From the NCBI RefSeq assembly GCF_023100845.1, contig NZ_CP095864.1, forward strand, positions 2,418,001 through 2,482,000: 64,000 bases of DNA, written 5' to 3'. A model generated the notes under the pieces. The model was not told the origin of the DNA. It made no database searches and saw only the letters and a program-made list of their open reading frames with translations. Position 1 is the stretch's first letter, and the number at the start of each line of letters is the position of its first letter. Positions 3,991 through 26,397 of this stretch are shown one piece after another. This DNA comes from Gordonia sp. PP30. Lineage in GTDB: Bacteria; Actinomycetota; Actinomycetes; Mycobacteriales; Mycobacteriaceae. Position numbers and translations under genes: made by a program.

Positions 3991-5409
3991 CTATCCCCCG
4001 ATGACCAGGTCGGCGTATTCGGCGGCGAGCGCCTTCGGCATGCGGACCCGGACCCGGGTGCCGTCGGCGGTGTGGTCGGTGTCGAGCACGTGGGCGTGCT
4101 GGTGCAGGCGGGCGATCACCTCGCCGCGGGCGAAGGGCACCGAGAGGACGGCCTCGACGTCGCCCTGTTCCACGAACTCGGTGATCCGGGTGAAGAGCTC
4201 GTCGAGCCCCTCACCGGACCGCGCGGAGATGAAGACCGCGTCGGGGAACTCGCCGCGCAGGGCGGTCATCCGGGTGGCGTCCACGGCGTCGATCTTGTTG
4301 ATGACCAGCAGTTCCGGCGGCGGGCCCGCGCCGTCGCGATCCTCCTCGGCGAAGACCTCGCCGAGAACCTGCCGGACCGCCGAGATCTGCTTCCCCGGGA
4401 AGGCGTCGGCGCCGTCGACCACGTGGATCAGCAGGTCGGCGTCGACCGCCTCCTCCAGCGTCGACCGGAACGCCTCGACCAGCTGTGTCGGCAGGTGGCG
4501 GACGAAGCCGACGGTGTCGGTGAAGACCACCTCGTGACCGTCGGCCAGCCGAGCGCGGCGGGTGGTCGGATCGAGGGTCGCGAACAGGGCGTCCTGCACC
4601 AGCACCCCGGAACCGGTCATGGCGTTGACCAGGCTCGACTTGCCCGCGTTGGTGTAGCCGACCACGGTGAGCGCGGGGACACCACCGCGTTTGCGCGCGG
4701 CCCGCTTGACGGTGCGGGCGGTCTTCATGCCCCGGATCTCCTTGCGGAGCTTGGCCATGCGCTCGCGGATGCGGCGGCGGTCGGTCTCGATCTTGGTCTC
4801 GCCCGGACCGCGCAGGCCCACGCCGCCGTTGCTGCCGGCGCGGCCGCCGGCCTGCCGGGACATCGACTCGCCCCAGCCGCGCAGACGCGGCAGCATGTAC
4901 TCCATCTGCGCGAGCGAGACCTGGGCCTTGCCCTCGCGGGAGGTGGCGTGCTGGGCGAAGATGTCGAGGATCAGCGCGGTGCGGTCGATCACCTTGACCT
5001 TGACGACCTTCTCCAGCGCGGTGAGCTGCGCGGGGGTCAGTTCACCGTCGCAGATCACGGTGTCGGCGCCGGTGGCGATCACCACCTCGCGGAGTTCCTC
5101 GGCCTTACCGGAACCGAGATAGGTCGACGGGTCGGGCTTGCCGCGCCGCTGGATGAGGGCGTCGAGCACCTCCGAGCCGGCCGTCTCGGCGAGCGCGGCC
5201 AACTCGGCCATGCTCGCGCGGGCCTCGGCGACGGTGCCCGAGGTCCAGACGCCGACCAGGACCACACGTTCGAGCCGCAGTTGCCGGTATTCGACCTCGG
5301 TGATGTCGGCGAGTTCGGTGGACAGTCCGGCGACACGCTGCAGACTGGCGCGGTCGTCGAGTTGGAGTTCGCCGGTCGTCGGGGTGCTGAGTTCGTACAG
5401 TTCAGTCAT
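3991..5409 (-). CDS. hflX: Ribosome-associated GTPase HflX
   Basis: 472-residue GTPase of the HflX family, which binds ribosomes and rescues or recycles stalled particles. An N-terminal HflX domain (about 45-235) contains GKPDPSTYLGSGK and the conserved glycine-rich stretch GLRGPGETKIETDRR. The G domain has G1 GYTNAGKSS (251-259), G3 DTVGF (298-302) and G4 NKID near 370. Length is typical. It sits downstream of dapF and miaA in the same order as in mycobacteria, separated from dapF by 85 bases. Confidence 0.97.
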   Translation of the reverse strand: MTELYELSTPTTGELQLDDRASLQRVAGLSTELADITEVEYRQLRLERVVLVGVWTSGTVAEARASMAELAALAETAGSEVLDALIQRRGKPDPSTYLGSGKAEELREVVIATGADTVICDGELTPAQLTALEKVVKVKVIDRTALILDIFAQHATSREGKAQVSLAQMEYMLPRLRGWGESMSRQAGGRAGSNGGVGLRGPGETKIETDRRRIRERMAKLRKEIRGMKTARTVKRAARKRGGVPALTVVGYTNAGKSSLVNAMTGSGVLVQDALFATLDPTTRRARLADGHEVVFTDTVGFVRHLPTQLVEAFRSTLEEAVDADLLIHVVDGADAFPGKQISAVRQVLGEVFAEEDRDGAGPPPELLVINKIDAVDATRMTALRGEFPDAVFISARSGEGLDELFTRITEFVEQGDVEAVLSVPFARGEVIARLHQHAHVLDTDHTADGTRVRVRMPKALAAEYADLVIGG

Positions 5410-5494
5410 ATGTCATCCATGATGACTGAACACGACGCCCTCGTGCATCCGGGTTTTCTCTGGGCGCAATCACGCCGGTCGGGCGGAGCCGAGA

Positions 5495-6406
5495 TCAGCC
5501 GTCGAGGAAGCCCTCGATCAGTTCGCCGTGGGCCACCAGCCGCGACGGTCCGCGCAGGAACGCCTCGGTCGGCGTGACGGTGACGGTGACCGCTCCACCG
5601 GGCACCGCGATACGCACGACGCCCTCGGCGCGGCCGAGACCGTGCAGGGCCGCCGCCGCCCCGGCCACCAGACCGGTACCGCACGAGCGGGTCTCCCCCA
5701 CACCGCGCTCGAAGACCCGCAGGTGGGACGTGAAATCGGTGTCCCCGGACGCGGGCTGCAGTGGTGTCAGCAGTTCGACGTTGGCCCCGTGCGGGAACAC
5801 CGCGGCATCGAGCACCGGCGCGGCAGTCAGGTCGAGCGCCGCCAGGCCCTCCGGGGTCAGCCCGTCGACGACGCACGCCAGGTGCGGGTTGCCGACGTCG
5901 ACCGCCTCACCGCACAGCTCACGCCCGGCGATCGTGGTCGCGGCGACGCCGTCGAGCCGCGCCGGGCCCATCCCGACGGTCACCTCCGCGGCGCTCGCAT
6001 CGCAGCTGTGCACGACCACCGGCCGGGCTCCCGCCCGGGAGCCGACCACGAATTCGGCCGCCTCGACCAGTCCGTAAGCCCGGCAGTAGTGCGCGAAGAC
6101 GCGCACGCCGTTGCCGCACATCTCGGCGATCGAACCGTCGGCGTTGCGGTAGTCCATGAACCAGTCGTCCTCGGCGATACCGGGTGCGAGGCCGTCGAGC
6201 ACCCCGGCGCGCACCAGGGCACCGGCCCGGGCGACGCGCAGCAGGCCGTCGCCGCCGAGACCGCGCTGCCGGTCGCACAGGACGGTGACCAGCTCTTCGG
6301 TCAGGTCGAGCTCGGCGTCCGGGTCGGGCAGGATCACGAAGTCGTTCTGGGTGCCGTGGCCCTTGGCGAACCGCAGTCCGGAAGTCGTCGGCGCAGGAGT
6401 CGTCAC
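5495..6406 (-). CDS. dapF: Diaminopimelate epimerase
   Basis: 303 residues. Interconverts LL- and meso-diaminopimelate, giving the lysine precursor and the cross-linking residue of peptidoglycan. Two catalytic cysteines are visible in their family contexts: Cys97 in MCGNGVR and Cys242 in ETRSCGTG. The GTG start at 6406 is preceded by TAACCT 7 bases upstream and no Shine-Dalgarno, so it is probably leaderless. The gene follows miaA by 10 bases, and its -10 hexamer contains the miaA stop codon. dapA and dapB of the same pathway are also in this window. Confidence 0.97.
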
Positions 6407-6413
6407 GACTGCC

Positions 6414-6419
6414 AGGTTA
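6414..6419 (-). promoter_or_regulatory. -10 element of dapF, overlapping the miaA stop
   Basis: On the minus strand TAACCT ends 7 bases before the dapF GTG. Its first three bases are the TAA stop codon of miaA. An internal promoter inside the miaA-dapF junction is inferred. Confidence 0.5.
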
Positions 6420-7334
6420 CCCGGCGGTCCCCGCGTCGAGGACGGCGAGCGCGCGGCCGGCCAGCCCCGGATCGGCGGCGTCGAGCCAGTGCACCCGGTG
6501 GTCGCGGCGGAACCACGACCGCTGCCTCCGGACGTAGCGACGGGTGCCGATGAACGTCAGCTCACGGGCCTTGTCGAGGTCGTACTCGCCGTCCAGGTGG
6601 GCCAGGATGTGCGCGTAGCCGATGGCCTGGGACGCGGTCTTGCCGTCGCGGAGACCTTGCCCGCAGAGCGCCACCACCTCGTCCACGAAGCCGCCGTCGA
6701 ACATCGCGTCGGTGCGCCGCGCGATGCGCTCGTCGAGGGCCGTGGTCTCCCGGTCGAGCGCGAGAATCCTCGTGCCCCACCGCGGTTCGCCGATCGTCGG
6801 GGCCGATGCGGCGAACGGCTGCCCGGTCAGCTCGACCACTTCGAGCGCCCGCACGATGCGCCGCCCGTCGGTGTCGAGGATGGTCGAGGCGGCCGCCGGG
6901 TCCACCTCGGCGAGACGGCGATGCAGTGCAAGCGCACCGATCTCGGCGAGCTGCTCCTCGAACTTCACCCGGACCCGCGGGTCGGTGGCCGGGAAGCGCC
7001 AGTCGTCGAGCAGCCCCTGGATGTACATCATCGAGCCGCCGACGATGATCGGCACCGTGCCGTCGGCCAGCAGCCGGTCGATGACGGCGGTGGCCGCCTC
7101 TTTGTATCCGGCGACCGTCGCCGTCTCGGTGACGTCGAGGACGTCGAGCAGATGGTGCAGGATGCCGCGCCGCTCGGCGACCGGCAGCTTGGCGGTGCCG
7201 ATGTCCATCCCCCGGTACTGCGCCATGGCGTCGATGTTGACGATCTCGCCGCCGAGACGTTCGGCGAGGTCGAGGGCCAGGTCCGACTTGCCGCTGGCGG
7301 TCGGCCCGATGACGGCGATCGGCGCTCCGCCCAT
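6417..7334 (-). CDS. miaA: tRNA dimethylallyltransferase MiaA
   Basis: 305 residues. Transfers an isopentenyl group to A37 of tRNAs reading UNN codons. MiaB, which methylthiolates the product, is also in the window. The P-loop GPTASGKS is at residues 10-17, followed by the substrate motif [17 protein letters not shown], and later a C-terminal [14 protein letters not shown] typical of MiaA. The ATG at 7334 overlaps the stop of the upstream gene by one base (TGATG), so translation is likely coupled. Longer in-frame starts would add an Arg-rich unstructured extension and were rejected. Confidence 0.96.
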
Positions 7335-8119
7335 CACGCGTTCCCGGTGCCGGCGGGCCGGAACGACGCGACCGTGTAGCCCACCCCGAACGGCGCACCG
7401 CGGAAGCGCGCGTCGACGTCCCACGCGGGCCGGCCGTCGAGGAGCTGCGCCAGTGCCAGCCAGGCAGCCCGTGTACCGACGCCTTCGGCGGCGCACTCCG
7501 CCTCGCCGAGGGCGGCGAGGGTCTCCCGGTCGGCGCCCACCACGGCGTCGTCGATCCGGTTCTGCAGTTCCCATGCCGAGGCGCGTTCACCGCCCCCGGG
7601 GGCCCGAGGACTGAGCGCGTTCGCGCCGTCGGCGATCACCAGGACACCGATCGGCTCATCCGAGACCGGCCGCTCCGCGAGGGAGAGCTCGCGCACGGCG
7701 AGCCGCACGACTTCCGGCCGGCAGCATGGATCGAGGACGACCGGGTCGATGCGCACCGGCCGCGGCGACACCTGCGCACCGAGCCAGCCGGCGAGCAGCA
7801 TGGACAGCGGCAACGGAGCGGGCGGTTCGATCCGGTCCGGCAGCGGCGGGTGCGGCAGGCTCACCGGCACCGGCACGCCGTAGGCGCCGAAGTCGCCGGA
7901 CTGCCGGCAGTCGGGGATGCGCGGATTCACCCGGCCCCGCGCGGACGTGTCGGGGCGATCGGCGACGCCGATCGCGATCCACCGCGACGCCGCGGCCGCC
8001 AGCGAGGCTCCCGCCGCGAGCACCGCGTCACGGACCGGGACGGTGTCGTCGGCGGCCGGACCGGACAGCTCCGGCACCAGCAGGGGCGCGCTCGGAATCA
8101 CCGCGATCTCAGCCAACAC
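7334..8119 (-). CDS. Conserved actinobacterial protein upstream of miaA (class III extradiol dioxygenase-like)
   Basis: 261 residues with the GTG at 8119. The neighbourhood and sequence match the conserved alanine-rich protein encoded directly before miaA in mycobacteria (Rv2728c position). The opening [17 protein letters not shown] and later [14 protein letters not shown] recall the LigB/Memo class III extradiol dioxygenase fold, but I cannot identify a complete metal site, so no reaction is assigned. The frame remains open to GTG 8191 and ATG 8182. I chose 8119 because TACCGT lies exactly 7 bases upstream and the protein then begins at the first conserved residues. It is coupled to miaA by a one-base overlap. 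Confidence 0.8.
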
Positions 8120-8126
8120 GGCTCCG

Positions 8127-8132
8127 ACGGTA
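8127..8132 (-). promoter_or_regulatory. -10 element of the gene before miaA
   Basis: Minus-strand TACCGT, 7 bases before GTG 8119. It supports a leaderless transcript and the shorter start of this gene. Confidence 0.45.
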
Positions 8133-8338
8133 CCGGCCGCCGGGACGGCGAGACGCGCCGGATACGGCTCTGTCGGCCCCATCGACGGCACCGAACTGTT
8201 TCAATGAACAGCGAAATGAACGAATCACCGTCGGCTCTGCCGTGTCCGCCGCCCCCGCGCGGCGCCGCACGACGCCGTCACCGCGGTGATTCCGGCGGCC
8301 GTGACGCGCGGCGCGACTGACGAAGGGCGACCCATCCG

Positions 8339-9712
8339 ATGAGCACTCCGAACGACCAGACCCCGGCCGACGACACCGGCCAGGCCACCCCCGCTCCCCG
8401 GCCGGGCCCGCGGCCCGGACCGCGCCCGAGCGCCCCGCGCCCCGGGCCGACCCCCGGACACCGCCCCGGCCCCGTCGTCCACCACATCGAGGCCGGTGAT
8501 CCCACCGCCTTCGGCCGGATCGACGACGACGGCAACGTCTGGCTCACCACGCGCGACGGCGAGCGGCAGATCGGGTCGTGGCAGGCCGGCACCCGCGAAG
8601 AGGGGATGGCGCACTTCGCGCGGAAGTTCGCCGACCTGGCGACCGAGACGGAGATCCTGGAGGAACGGCTCGACGCCCGGTCCGGTGACCCCCGCAAGAC
8701 GCAGGCCGCCGCGCAGCATCTGCTGGACGAGCTGCCGTCCGCCCAGGCGATCGGCGACATCGACGCCCTCACCGCGCGGCTGGCGACGATCGTCGAGCGC
8801 GCCGGTGCGCTGACCGGAGAAGTCCGTGCCGAGCGCGATGCGGCGCGGGCGGCCGCCATCGCCCGCAAGGAGGAACTGGCCGCCGAGGCCGAGGCCATCG
8901 GCAGCGAATCGACCCAGTGGAAGGCCAGCGGCGACCGGCTCCGGGTGATCCTCGATGAGTGGAAGACCATCCGCGGCGTCGACCGCAAGACCGACGACAT
9001 CCTGTGGAAGCGCTACTCGCGGGCCCGCGACGCGTTCAACCGGCGACGCGGCGCGCACTTCGCCGAACTCGATCGCGAGCGCGCCGTGGTCAAGGCCCGC
9101 AAGGAAGAGCTGATCACCGCGGCGGAGGAACTGTCGACCTCCACCGACTGGGGACCGACGGCGGCCAAGTACCGGGAACTTCTCACCCAGTGGAAGGCGG
9201 CCGGACGGGCGCCGCGCGACGCCGACGACGCGCTGTGGGCGCGGTTCAAGGCCGCCCAGGACGTGTTCTTCGCCGCCCGCAACGCGGTGCACTCCGAGCG
9301 GGACGCCGAGTTCGGGCAGAACGCCGAGGCCAAGGCCGCGCTGCTCAGCGAGTACGAGAAGACCATCGACCCGGGGTCCGGTCTGGAGGCCGCCCGGCGC
9401 GAGTTCCGGACGTTCAGGGAACGCTGGGAAGAGATCGGCAAGGTGCCACGCGAGCAGATGCATGCGCTGGAGGGCCGGGCCCGCGCCCTGGAGAAGCGCA
9501 TCCGCGACGCCGAGGAGGCCGACTGGTCGCGCACCGATCCGGAGGCGCTGGCGCGTGCCGCGCAGTTCGCCGAGCGCGCCGCCAAGCTGTCCGAGCAGGC
9601 CGACAAGGCCGCGGCGGCGGGCAAGGACCGGGATGCCGCGAAGCTCCGCGAGCAGGCCGCGCAGTGGACCGAGTGGGCCGAGGCCGCCAACAGCGCCGTC
9701 GACGGCCGCTGA
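8339..9712 (+). CDS. DUF349 coiled-coil protein
   Basis: 457 residues. After a Pro/Arg-rich, low-complexity N-terminus (about 1-45) comes a short domain (HHIEAGDPTAFGRIDDDGNVWL), then several DUF349-type helical repeats recognisable by W-K/R patterns (STQWKASGDRLRVILDEWKTI, LLTQWKAAGRAPRDADDALW, FRERWEEIGKVP). An Ala/Glu-rich coiled coil forms the C-terminus. The mycobacterial equivalent (Rv2731 position) is a conserved alanine/arginine-rich protein without firm function. It is transcribed alone, divergent from the miaA group and convergent with the next gene (7-base gap). GAAGGG 12 bases upstream is a weak ribosome binding site. Confidence 0.88.
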   Translation: MSTPNDQTPADDTGQATPAPRPGPRPGPRPSAPRPGPTPGHRPGPVVHHIEAGDPTAFGRIDDDGNVWLTTRDGERQIGSWQAGTREEGMAHFARKFADLATETEILEERLDARSGDPRKTQAAAQHLLDELPSAQAIGDIDALTARLATIVERAGALTGEVRAERDAARAAAIARKEELAAEAEAIGSESTQWKASGDRLRVILDEWKTIRGVDRKTDDILWKRYSRARDAFNRRRGAHFAELDRERAVVKARKEELITAAEELSTSTDWGPTAAKYRELLTQWKAAGRAPRDADDALWARFKAAQDVFFAARNAVHSERDAEFGQNAEAKAALLSEYEKTIDPGSGLEAARREFRTFRERWEEIGKVPREQMHALEGRARALEKRIRDAEEADWSRTDPEALARAAQFAERAAKLSEQADKAAAAGKDRDAAKLREQAAQWTEWAEAANSAVDGR

Positions 9713-22063: not shown

Positions 22064-22345
22064 ATGCCCAAGTACGTCGCCGAATACACCTACCTGCCCG
22101 ACACCGCCGCGCTGCGCGACGAGCACCGCCCCGCGCACCGGCTCTGGCTGCACGACGGCCACGAGGCCGGGATCGTCCTCGCCGTCGGTGCCTTCGCCGA
22201 CGGCAGCGGCGCCCTCGTCATCGTGAACGCCGACGACGCGGAGGCCGCCGCCGAGGTGCTGGCCCACGACCCGTTCGCCCTCGTCGGTGCGATCGACGAG
22301 ACCCGCGTGCGGGAGTGGAACTGCCTGTACGGCCCCTTCGCCTGA
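22064..22345 (+). CDS. YciI-family small protein
   Basis: 93 residues, ferredoxin-like alpha/beta YciI fold: KYVAEYTYLPDTAALRDEHRPAHRLWL, then AVGAFADGSGALVIVNADDAEAAAEVLAHDPFALVGAIDETRVREW, with the conserved H-x-D-G and DPF motifs. The family's chemistry is mostly unknown (one relative acts as a dehalogenase). It begins 16 bases after argA but has its own -10 hexamer. Its stop (TGA) abuts the stop of the convergent TerC gene (TGATCA). Confidence 0.88.
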   Translation: MPKYVAEYTYLPDTAALRDEHRPAHRLWLHDGHEAGIVLAVGAFADGSGALVIVNADDAEAAAEVLAHDPFALVGAIDETRVREWNCLYGPFA

Positions 22346-23326
22346 TCAGGTCCGGGCGCGGCGGCGGCTGACCACCAGGCTGGCCACCGTCGTGACCAGC
22401 AGTGTGGCGCCGATGACACCCAGGCTGAGCGGCGTGGAGATCTCCGGCACGTGCACCGGGGCGCCGCCGTTGATGAAGCCGAGCGTGTTCTCGTGCAGGG
22501 CGTGCAGGACCAGCTTGACGCCGATGAACGCCAGGATCAGCGACAGCCCGTACGACAGGTAGATCAGCTCGTCGAGCAGGCCGCCGAGCAGGAAGTACAG
22601 CTGGCGCAGGCCCATCAGGGCGAAGGCGTTGGCGGTGAACACCAGGTACGGCTGCTGGGTGAGCCCGTAGATCGCCGGGATCGAGTCGAGTGCGAAGAGC
22701 ACGTCGGTGAATCCGATGACGATCAGCACCACCAGCAGGGGCGTCACATAGCGCTTGCCGTCGATCCGGGTGACCAGCTTGTCGCCGTCGTAGGAGTCGG
22801 TGGTCCGCAGGAAACGCTTGGCGAAGCGCTCGATCCGGCCCTCCCGCTCCCGCTCGTGCTCCACCGGCTCTTCGCTCTCGGTGAGGAGTTTGACGGCGGT
22901 GAGGATCAGGAACAGGCCGAACAGGTAGAACACCCAGCTGTACGCGGAGATCGCGGCCGCGCCGACGGCGATGAACGCGCCGCGCATGACCAGCGCCATC
23001 ACGATGCCGAGGAGCAGCACCTTCTGCTGGTAGATCCGCGGCACCATGAACTTGGCCATGATGATGACGAAGACGAAGAGGTTGTCGACCGACAGGGCCT
23101 TCTCGGTGACGAATCCGGCGAAGTACTCACCGCCGTAGGTGCCGCCCCATCTCCACCAGACGAATCCGCCGAAGGCGAGCGCGAGGCTGATGTAGACGGC
23201 CGACCAGAACCCGGATTCGCGGAGCGTCGGTTCGTGCGGCACCCGCACGTGGGAGAAGAAATCGAAGACGAACAACCCGATGATCACCGCGCAGGTGATC
23301 ACCCAGGTGAGAACAGAGACATCCAT
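22346..23326 (-). CDS. TerC/Alx-family integral membrane protein (probable Mn2+ exporter)
   Basis: 326 residues, about nine membrane segments. TerC features: FVTEKALSVDNLFVF (segment 3, with the conserved E/K and DN pair) and FTDVLFALDSIPAI (conserved DS). These acidic residues are implicated in metal transport in Alx/TerC/MeeF proteins, several of which export or deliver manganese. A cytoplasmic acidic loop (ESEEPVEHEREREGRIERFAK) lies mid-protein. ATG 23326 has ribosome binding site GGAGG and is preceded by a yybP-ykoY-type Mn2+ riboswitch, which strongly supports a manganese role over tellurite resistance. Confidence 0.93.
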   Translation of the reverse strand: MDVSVLTWVITCAVIIGLFVFDFFSHVRVPHEPTLRESGFWSAVYISLALAFGGFVWWRWGGTYGGEYFAGFVTEKALSVDNLFVFVIIMAKFMVPRIYQQKVLLLGIVMALVMRGAFIAVGAAAISAYSWVFYLFGLFLILTAVKLLTESEEPVEHEREREGRIERFAKRFLRTTDSYDGDKLVTRIDGKRYVTPLLVVLIVIGFTDVLFALDSIPAIYGLTQQPYLVFTANAFALMGLRQLYFLLGGLLDELIYLSYGLSLILAFIGVKLVLHALHENTLGFINGGAPVHVPEISTPLSLGVIGATLLVTTVASLVVSRRRART

Positions 23327-23331
23327 GCCGA

Positions 23332-23370
23332 ACCTCCAGCGCGCAACACTAAGGAAGCGATGCTGGAGGT
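23332..23370 (-). promoter_or_regulatory. Shine-Dalgarno-sequestering stem of the TerC riboswitch
   Basis: ACCTCCAGC (23370-23362, minus strand) is the exact complement of GCTGGAGGT (23340-23332), which holds the ribosome binding site of the TerC gene; loop 21 bases. The same CCTCC is also the 3' strand of aptamer stem P1, so the two pairings exclude each other. Confidence 0.7.
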
Positions 23371-23490
23371 CTCTCCCGTCCGCCCGAGGCGGACCGACGT
23401 CCCGGGCGCCGCGGTTCCGGAGTGATCGGCACTCCGGGCCCACGCCGCCGTATTGACGAGAGCGTCGTGAAGGGGATACTCCCCTCCTGA
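23361..23490 (-). promoter_or_regulatory. yybP-ykoY (manganese) riboswitch
   Basis: The minus-strand leader contains the three hallmark blocks in order: GGAGGGGAGTA (P1 5' strand plus L1), CGTCAATACGG (L3) and GAGAGACCTCC (3' strand of P1). P1 pairs GGAGG with CCTCC. Between them are perfect hairpins, CCGGAGTG/CACTCCGG (23417-23437) and GTCCGCC/GGCGGAC (23378-23394). The element ends 35 bases before the TerC start codon. Mn2+ binding would hold P1 closed and release the ribosome binding site. Confidence 0.85.
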
Positions 23491-23491
23491 T

Positions 23492-23514
23492 CGTGAGGGC
23501 CAGTCTACCTCACG
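23492..23514 (-). promoter_or_regulatory. Promoter of the TerC gene inside an inverted repeat
   Basis: TAGACT (23507-23502, minus strand) is a -10 that would start transcription near 23495, just before the aptamer. It lies in the centre of a perfect 7-bp inverted repeat CGTGAGG/CCTCACG that begins on the base after the ftsK stop. The repeat could be an operator or an ftsK terminator. Confidence 0.45.

Positions 23515-26397
<2,883 letters not shown>

Follow-up and report, generated by a model that had tools for sequence, protein, structure and literature searches.

An alx-type yybP-ykoY leader upstream of a TerC/Alx gene in Gordonia sp. PP30: a predicted Mn2+-responsive translational ON switch with relatives across the class Actinomycetes

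The leader of a TerC/Alx family gene in Gordonia sp. PP30 is, with high probability, a yybP-ykoY riboswitch of the alx type, in which predicted Mn2+ binding would turn TerC translation ON by strand exchange. The leader was found in a window of 64,000 nucleotides (contig NZ_CP095864.1, positions 2,418,001 to 2,482,000), which is the whole stretch of DNA that was analysed. In the proposed mechanism, a CCUCC strand would pair either with GGAGG, closing the helix P1, or with the arm that carries the Shine-Dalgarno (SD) sequence. Without Mn2+, the CCUCC strand would lie on the SD arm and the ribosome-binding site would be hidden; Mn2+ would lock L1 onto L3, CCUCC would then be held in P1 and the SD would be free. 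High Mn2+ would in this way give more TerC/Alx protein. We infer Mn2+ as the ligand, the ON direction and the switching itself, the ligand and the direction on grounds of homology and anatomy. The positions of the features are collected in Table 1.

Table 1. Features of the TerC/Alx locus and its leader (positions of the window; SD, Shine-Dalgarno)
Feature	Position	Strand	Remark
ftsK	23515-26397	(-)	Upstream of the leader
Leader, 188 nt	23327-23514	(-)	Follows the ftsK stop and precedes the TerC start
Inverted repeat CGTGAGG/CCTCACG, 7 bp	23514-23508 / 23498-23492	(-)	Flanks the -10; directly after the ftsK stop
-10 hexamer TAGACT (predicted leader promoter)	23507-23502	(-)	Sequence; conserved position
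Aptamer domain, match of covariance model R1	23362-23493	(-)	71.6 bits, E 5.5e-15
GGGGAGTA hallmark	23484-23477	(-)	Window sequence
CGTCAATAC hallmark	within 23458-23449	(-)	Window sequence
GAGACCTCC hallmark	23373-23365	(-)	Window sequence
P1 5′ strand GGAGG	23483-23487	(-)	Helix 1 of the covariation test
L1 5′ side GGAGUA	23477-23482	(-)	With the preceding GG, the GGGGAGUA hallmark
P1.2 5′ strand UCCC	23473-23476	(-)	Pairs with 23377-23374; helix 2 of the covariation test
P3 5′ strand CGACG	23463-23467	(-)	Pairs with CGUCG 23399-23395; fold and helix 3
L3 block CGUCAAUACG	23449-23458	(-)	Extruded 7-nt loop UCAAUAC, 23456-23450
P3 inner hairpin CCGGAGUG...CACUCCGG	23417-23437	(-)	Predicted fold
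L3 3′ side CCGG	23402-23405	(-)	Invariant columns in alignment A2
P3 3′ strand CGUCG	23395-23399	(-)	Partner of the P3 5′ strand
P4 hairpin GUCCGCC...GGCGGAC	23378-23394	(-)	Fold; helix 5 of the covariation test
P1.2 3′ strand GGGA and L1 3′ side GAGA	23370-23377	(-)	Sequence, covariation
P1 3′ strand CCUCC	23365-23369	(-)	Switch strand common to P1 and the anti-SD helix
Anti-SD arm ACCUCCAGC	23362-23370	(-)	Exact complement of 23332-23340; given as ACCTCCAGC in the first-pass annotation
SD arm GCUGGAGGU	23332-23340	(-)	Holds the SD GGAGG (23337-23333); given as GCTGGAGGT in the first-pass annotation
TerC/Alx family gene	22346-23326	(-)	Under the leader; TIGR03718 R_switched_Alx and PF03741

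The TerC protein was assigned to Pfam PF03741 with an E value of 6.8e-51 in the Pfam scan, and it scored 376.1 bits (E 1.4e-112) with the NCBIfam model TIGR03718, over the curated cut-off of 246.4. The full name of this model is 'R_switched_Alx, TerC/Alx family metal homeostasis membrane protein'. The nearest named relatives of the protein, among the best 80 of 183 relatives, were found in Gordonia hirsuta and G. alkaliphila, with 88% identity. By analogy with its E. coli and B. subtilis relatives, the TerC/Alx protein probably moves Mn2+ from the cytoplasm or into exported enzymes; PMC10550928 describes Mn export and exoenzyme metalation for the B. subtilis TerC proteins MeeF and MeeY and implicates E. 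coli Alx in Mn efflux. On the + strand, a short gene for a YCII-domain protein (22064-22345; PF03795, E 8.5e-13) runs towards the TerC gene and abuts its 3′ end with zero gap.

Related TerC proteins were collected by a protein scan of one genome per species (84,980 species), which gave 183 relatives, and the best 80 were retained. The leader motif was found in 83 of 141 records, of which 79 were distinct, and at 57 of the 80 named loci. Among the best 80 of the 183 relatives, the motif was present in 31 of 32 loci of Gordonia (all except L019), 16 of 17 loci of Rhodococcus/Prescottella (all except L080), 6 of 6 loci of Tsukamurella, 3 of 9 loci of Williamsia and the single locus of Jongsikchunia; it was found in none of the 12 loci of Nocardia and in none of the 3 loci of Kitasatospora, Mycobacterium and Antrihabitans together. 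The TerC gene of L019 (Gordonia sp. UBA7599) lacked the motif, and a short stretch with GAGGAGG was found before its start.

The -10 hexamer TAGACT, which the first-pass annotation had placed just before the aptamer, was present there, and transcription is expected to start about 6-8 nt past it, right before P1. When a TANNNT hexamer was searched for at 8-20 nt from P1 on its 5′ side, 42 of the 79 leaders contained one, in every case at a distance of 11-15 nt, against a mean of 7.6 and a maximum of 17 in shuffled sequences to which the same search was applied. The same annotation had described an inverted repeat round the -10, which stood as far as the window sequence is concerned and was missing from the seven sister leaders inspected (L001, L002, L003, L004, L005, L018 and L043). 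The repeat was therefore rejected as an operator and is probably incidental.

The aptamer was found to contain the yybP-ykoY hallmarks GGGGAGTA, CGTCAATAC and GAGACCTCC at the places that had been claimed for them, and it matched R1, a covariance model built from related leaders and described below, with 71.6 bits. The L1 hallmark GGGGAGUA, with a GAGA-type 3′ side, was found between P1 and P1.2, and the GGAGTA of L1 was present in 73 of 73 R1 matches. The stretch 23320-23506 had a fold z-score of -4.07, and none of 200 shuffled sequences was equally stable. The leader had no P2 helix of the kind that makes the typical four-way junction; in the 79 leaders, the segment that joins L1 to L3 was only 16-23 nt long. 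The room left between P1.2 and the 8-bp P3 was about 3-10 nt, and a P2 helix in the window leader was rejected because this segment is too short. P2 is typical of yybP-ykoY leaders, not universal: the E. coli alx leader lacks P2 at the same place, and the review PMC9495176 describes a streptococcal member of the group with a three-way junction.

The Mn2+ site of the L. lactis riboswitch is described in PMC6754395 as composed of L1 and the L3 loop UCA41AU43UC, with the N7 of A41 as the selective contact, and the corresponding X. oryzae loop as ACA48UACU with A48; the residues of the L. lactis site are given in PMC9190785 as G9, U39, C40, A41, U44 and C45. The window was found to contain a 7-nt L3 loop of this kind, UCAAUAC, which differs by one base from the L. 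lactis UCAAUUC and in which the A at 23454 maps to the Mn2+-contacting A41 (A48 in X. oryzae). By our mapping, five of the six L. lactis site residues were kept and only position 44 was different, where L. lactis has U and the window and most leaders have A. All 79 motif-selected leaders contained CGTCA, although the search motif permitted A or G at its last place, and so did 70 of the 73 model matches. The three other matches were leaders of the MntP/GDT1 type and carried GUCGACAUAC.

The same aptamer fold might have Ca2+, alkaline pH or a mixture of signals as its natural input instead of Mn2+ alone, and such a reading would be in line with the A at residue 44 of L3, with the response of the E. 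coli alx leader to alkaline pH besides Mn (PMC9603457) and with the binding of Ca2+ by a streptococcal aptamer of the group (review PMC9495176). We consider it quite unlikely, as the adenosine of Mn2+ specificity was kept in every one of the motif-selected leaders, five of the six L. lactis site residues were by our mapping retained in the window, and the assignable downstream genes all came from families tied to the export of Mn2+ or divalent cations. Mn2+ is thus preferred as the predicted ligand.

A scan with the Rfam model RF00080, which had been proposed as a check of the riboswitch assignment, gave no match above threshold. No match was found in the leader region at E <= 1 or E <= 10, and none in the whole single-contig genome of 4,480,774 bases at E <= 0.001, where the best candidate lay elsewhere with an E value of 0.09. 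In its Rfam 15 form, the model left the E. coli alx leader undetected at E <= 1, and the score of 41.6 that it gave to the E. coli mntP leader lies under the cut-off of 45. The absence of an RF00080 match is not a valid exclusion, because the model misses alx and puts mntP below its cut-off, and the scan is therefore regarded as an invalid test. In the RF00080 alignment, L1 and its flanks were drawn unpaired, i.e. the model is without P1 and P1.2. On 14 TerC-type loci, RF00080 was placed at the right position and strand in two leaders (L061 with 14.6 bits and L162 with 14.5 bits), and weak matches of 22-27 bits were found at the MntP/GDT1 leaders L111, L113 and L114. In the stretch scanned, the other Rfam families gave six matches at E <= 10; all were miRNA, sRNA or snoRNA models far below their cut-offs and were rejected.

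The model R1 was built from alignment A2, a plain MAFFT alignment of 33 compact leaders that contained one Gordonia leader (L017) and excluded that of the window. A2 replaced an earlier alignment of 38 leaders (A1), in which the alignment of a long P3 insert was wrong for several leaders; ten of its rows were left out (L003, L005, L013, L018, L037, L039, L062, L074, L075 and L089) and five leaders were added (L057, L058, L065, L069 and L107). RNAalifold alone on A2 returned P1, P1.2, P3, the inner P3 stem and P4, nearly the same structure as the named one. In A2, 93.3% of the cells were found to pair and 15 of 25 pairs were changed on both sides, a result reached by none of 500 shuffles. The alignment of 73 R1 sequences, which was fitted to R1 and so favours its structure, was found to contain 96.3% of pairing cells and two-sided changes in 22 of 25 pairs (0 of 500 shuffles), against 40-54% of pairing cells in a control with slid partners. 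The P1 column 8-208 contained GC in 62, AU in 9 and CG in 1 of the 73 sequences, and the P1.2 column 19-199 contained UA in 38 and CG in 35. The helices P1, P1.2, P3 and P4 of the aptamer are shown by this covariation.

On the genome of the window, R1 was found to match 23362-23493 with 71.6 bits and an E value of 7.1e-14, the next best match having an E value of 1.08. Scans of more than 40 genomes were run with stricter filters, by which weak matches are lost, and under these filters 242 of the 394 Actinomycetes genomes searched contained an R1 match at E <= 0.001. RF00080 scored above its cut-off in none of the 394 and in none of 201 genomes from the family to which the window belongs. The leader is thus under-annotated in the class. 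The genes after 73 R1 matches, which were chosen from among the matches listed and from earlier searches and in which TerC was identified by tblastn, were TerC in 67 cases, MntP in 1, GDT1 in 2, a P-type ATPase in 1 and two unassigned, so that the matches with assigned genes were placed upstream of Mn2+ homeostasis genes. The match before the MntP gene (L111) scored 39.4 bits and those before the GDT1 genes scored 55.6 bits (L113) and 61.1 bits (L114). Pfam confirmed the MntP of L111 and the GDT1 of L114, and the GDT1 of L113 was recognised by eye from its translation.

Several further arrangements were observed among the R1 matches. The loci L093 and L106 each contained two R1 matches about 1.3-1.4 kb apart together with a tandem TerC pair, and each TerC gene of these pairs seems to have its own leader. 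The matches L201/L221 (genome G669) and L203/L220 (G028), with 74.5 and 73.7 bits, had no TerC gene within 1 kb downstream; the first gene after L201 had no Pfam match and L203 was followed by no clear gene. In another genome of the family of the window, a match in L216 (G142; 9423-9525, - strand) was found before a gene for a P-type ATPase of 1,526 aa (4880-9460, - strand) with PF00122, PF00702 and PF00689, for which the best NCBIfam model, below its cut-off, was a PMR1-type Ca2+ ATPase. The position of the riboswitch before this gene suggests that the ATPase is a Mn2+ pump. R1 matches were also found in L217 (G191, 68.5 bits) and L218 (G116, 67.2 bits).

The first-pass annotation had claimed that a P1 strand doubles as an anti-Shine-Dalgarno, and ACCTCCAGC and GCTGGAGGT were found to be an exact 9-base complement in the window, with the SD GGAGG ending 6 nt ahead of the TerC start codon. 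The pairing was followed in 151 leaders, which were the 79 motif-selected leaders minus one duplicate of the window, together with the 73 R1 matches. An SD stem of at least 6 bp was found in 144 of the 151 leaders and a shorter one in 7 (L071, L111, L163, L203, L206, L210 and L213), two of which have no adjoining TerC gene, L111 preceding mntP and L203 being without TerC. Loss of the complementarity with retention of the aptamer, which had been named as the observation that would speak against the proposal, was not the rule; in leaders with an altered P1 strand, compensating changes had often rebuilt the pairing. Mutually exclusive P1 and SD helices that share one strand were thus found, both of them conserved, as is expected of SD masking.

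The complementarity is partly automatic, since P1 and the SD are both GGAGG-like, and the excess over controls was computed for this reason. The mean score of the SD stem over the 151 leaders was 21.1, against 11.6 with shuffled downstream regions and 19.2 with swapped ones (maximum 19.6 in 200 runs); the stem scored was the best found in each leader, which is biased to pairing, and the swap control followed the same rule, the kinship of the leaders remaining in it. A constitutive structured 5′ UTR that binds no ligand, in which the GGAGG/CCUCC match is a by-product of the SD, would explain why the swapped regions still score so high, the P1 5′ strand and the SD being the same GGAGG; it would leave aside the observed mean above the swap maximum, the pairs beyond the SD, the rewritten element of L190 (both below) and the retention of the aptamer in most of the genomes of the class that were searched, and it is regarded as highly improbable. 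A switch strand kept in two helices is the reading that is followed here.

The triplets of P1, shared strand and SD were tabulated for the 148 leaders with stems of at least 5 bp, 3 of the 151 being left out. Position 4 contained G-C-G in 137 leaders, A-U-A in 4, A-U-G in 4, and C-G-C, U-C-G and G-U-G in 1 each, and position 8, which lies outside the SD, contained C-G in 51 and U-A in 46, the rest being mostly unpaired. In L190 (genome G690, 265-377), the shared strand reads CUUGUGGU and its partners are GCAAG in P1 and, downstream, ACCACAAG, so that all three strands were rewritten and both pairings were kept; of the likely SD of L190 (AAGAAAGG), only the 5′ edge is covered by the arm. Covariation in both pairings, which had been proposed as a check, was therefore borne out, the P1 3′ strand remaining complementary to both of its partners, the P1 5′ strand and the SD arm, through changes that affect each of the three strands.

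The anti-SD hairpin might alternatively act mainly on transcription, as a terminator or by opening a Rho site, with SD masking as a secondary effect. Runs of 7 and 6 T were found after the anti-SD hairpin and before the TerC start in G. spumicola (L002) and G. malaquae (L004), and Rho is described as working with the riboswitch in E. coli mntP (PMC11647493). Such a switch is unlikely for the group as a whole, as L002 and L004 were the only ones of the 151 leaders with at least 5 T within 12 nt past the arm, and an SD-like core (GGAG, GAGG, AAGG or AGGA) was present in the 3′ arm, extended by 2 nt, of 148 of the 151. With their terminator-like T runs, the species of L002 and L004 may also control transcription. 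For the window and its group, translational control through the SD remains the preferred reading.

The two states were compared thermodynamically in 144 leaders, the 7 with stems shorter than 6 bp being left out, and in a secondary-structure model the SD-hidden state was more stable than the P1 state in 143 of them, the median difference being 11.4 kcal/mol. When 26 nt of coding sequence were added to the window leader, the model gave the SD hairpin a probability of 0.20, with a rival fold within 0.6 kcal/mol, and P1 a probability of 0. The modelled preference for the hidden SD fits an OFF state without ligand. A difference of 11.4 kcal/mol probably exceeds what one ion can repay, and because the modelled gap is so large, switching would have to be under kinetic control: the RNA probably commits itself to one state co-transcriptionally, at a stage at which P1 is able to fold and the SD has still to be made.

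Earlier work had established this class of riboswitch, a form of it that acts on translation (mntP) and the connection with TerC/Alx genes, which the name of TIGR03718 also reflects. Among the literature matches listed, judged by title and abstract, no description of the actinobacterial structure, of the three-strand switch or of its breadth was found, no paper was recognised that treats a TerC riboswitch of actinobacteria other than corynebacteria, and a search for alx together with Shine-Dalgarno returned none. We think it rather likely that the Actinomycetes own a huge P2-less clade of alx-type Mn2+ riboswitches that is unseen by the current Rfam, in which one strand is selected in two alternative helices, in which aptamer, switch and SD co-evolve, and which governs many TerC/Alx genes as well as MntP, GDT1 and a giant P-type ATPase (a likely Mn2+ pump). 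The predicted Mn2+ riboswitch would thereby be extended to 242 of the 394 genomes searched in the class, and the compensating changes in three strands would make it a clear comparative example of an expression platform that works by strand exchange. Mn2+ homeostasis in these bacteria becomes directly testable, and R1 can be used as a functional label, e.g. for the 1,526-aa P-type ATPase.

Among the known systems, yybP-ykoY elements are reported by one comparative study in more than 75% of the taxonomic groups that it examined, with Corynebacteriaceae and Mycobacteriaceae among the groups covered (PMC3766115). Corynebacterium glutamicum also has a TerC leader (terC, cg2157), which was predicted by RF00080 of an older Rfam with 49.13 bits and at whose 5′ end a transcript start was observed (PMC3890552, Table 2), whereas the current RF00080 gave no match above its cut-off in the 201 genomes of the family of the window, which should include corynebacteria. 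Transcripts of C. glutamicum with two yybP-ykoY motifs have been reported, and one RF00080 prediction is given for C. pseudotuberculosis.

The L. lactis yoaB riboswitch (crystal structure 4Y1I) contains the L3 loop UCA41AU43UC, whereas that of the window is UCAAUAC. In yoaB, P1.1 is described as the switch helix that is stabilised by Mn2+ (PMC6754395, PMC9190785). By these accounts yoaB is transcriptional and has a four-way junction with P2, whereas in the window leader P2 is missing and the platform is based on the SD. For E. coli mntP, PMC11647493 describes a switch that turns translation ON, the ribosome-binding site being released by Mn, as is proposed here; the mntP leader differs in its AACAUACU-type L3 and in a P2 hairpin in the predicted fold, and R1 gave no match to it at E <= 10.

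R1 matched the E. coli alx leader with 42.5 bits (E 1.1e-8 in 43,607 bases), and its aligned fold contained the L1 GGGGAGUA, a ten-base L3 block CGUCANUACG and no P2 between P1.2 and P3, all as in the window. The P1 strand of alx can pair, by eye, with GGCGAGGUC well upstream of the SD, whereas that of the window pairs with the SD arm directly, and P4 is a long A/T-rich hairpin in alx and a short G+C-rich one in the window. The alx gene, annotated as 'Mn(2+) exporter Alx', is by its name the namesake of TIGR03718. PMC9603457 describes the E. coli alx and mntP leaders as Mn-responsive riboswitches, and a lacZ fusion of the alx 5′-UTR in a mntP-deficient strain as rising 3- and 6.5-fold with 1 and 2 mM Mn. 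The R1 match to alx therefore connects the leaders of the window and its relatives, by homology, to a riboswitch whose response to Mn has been established by experiment.
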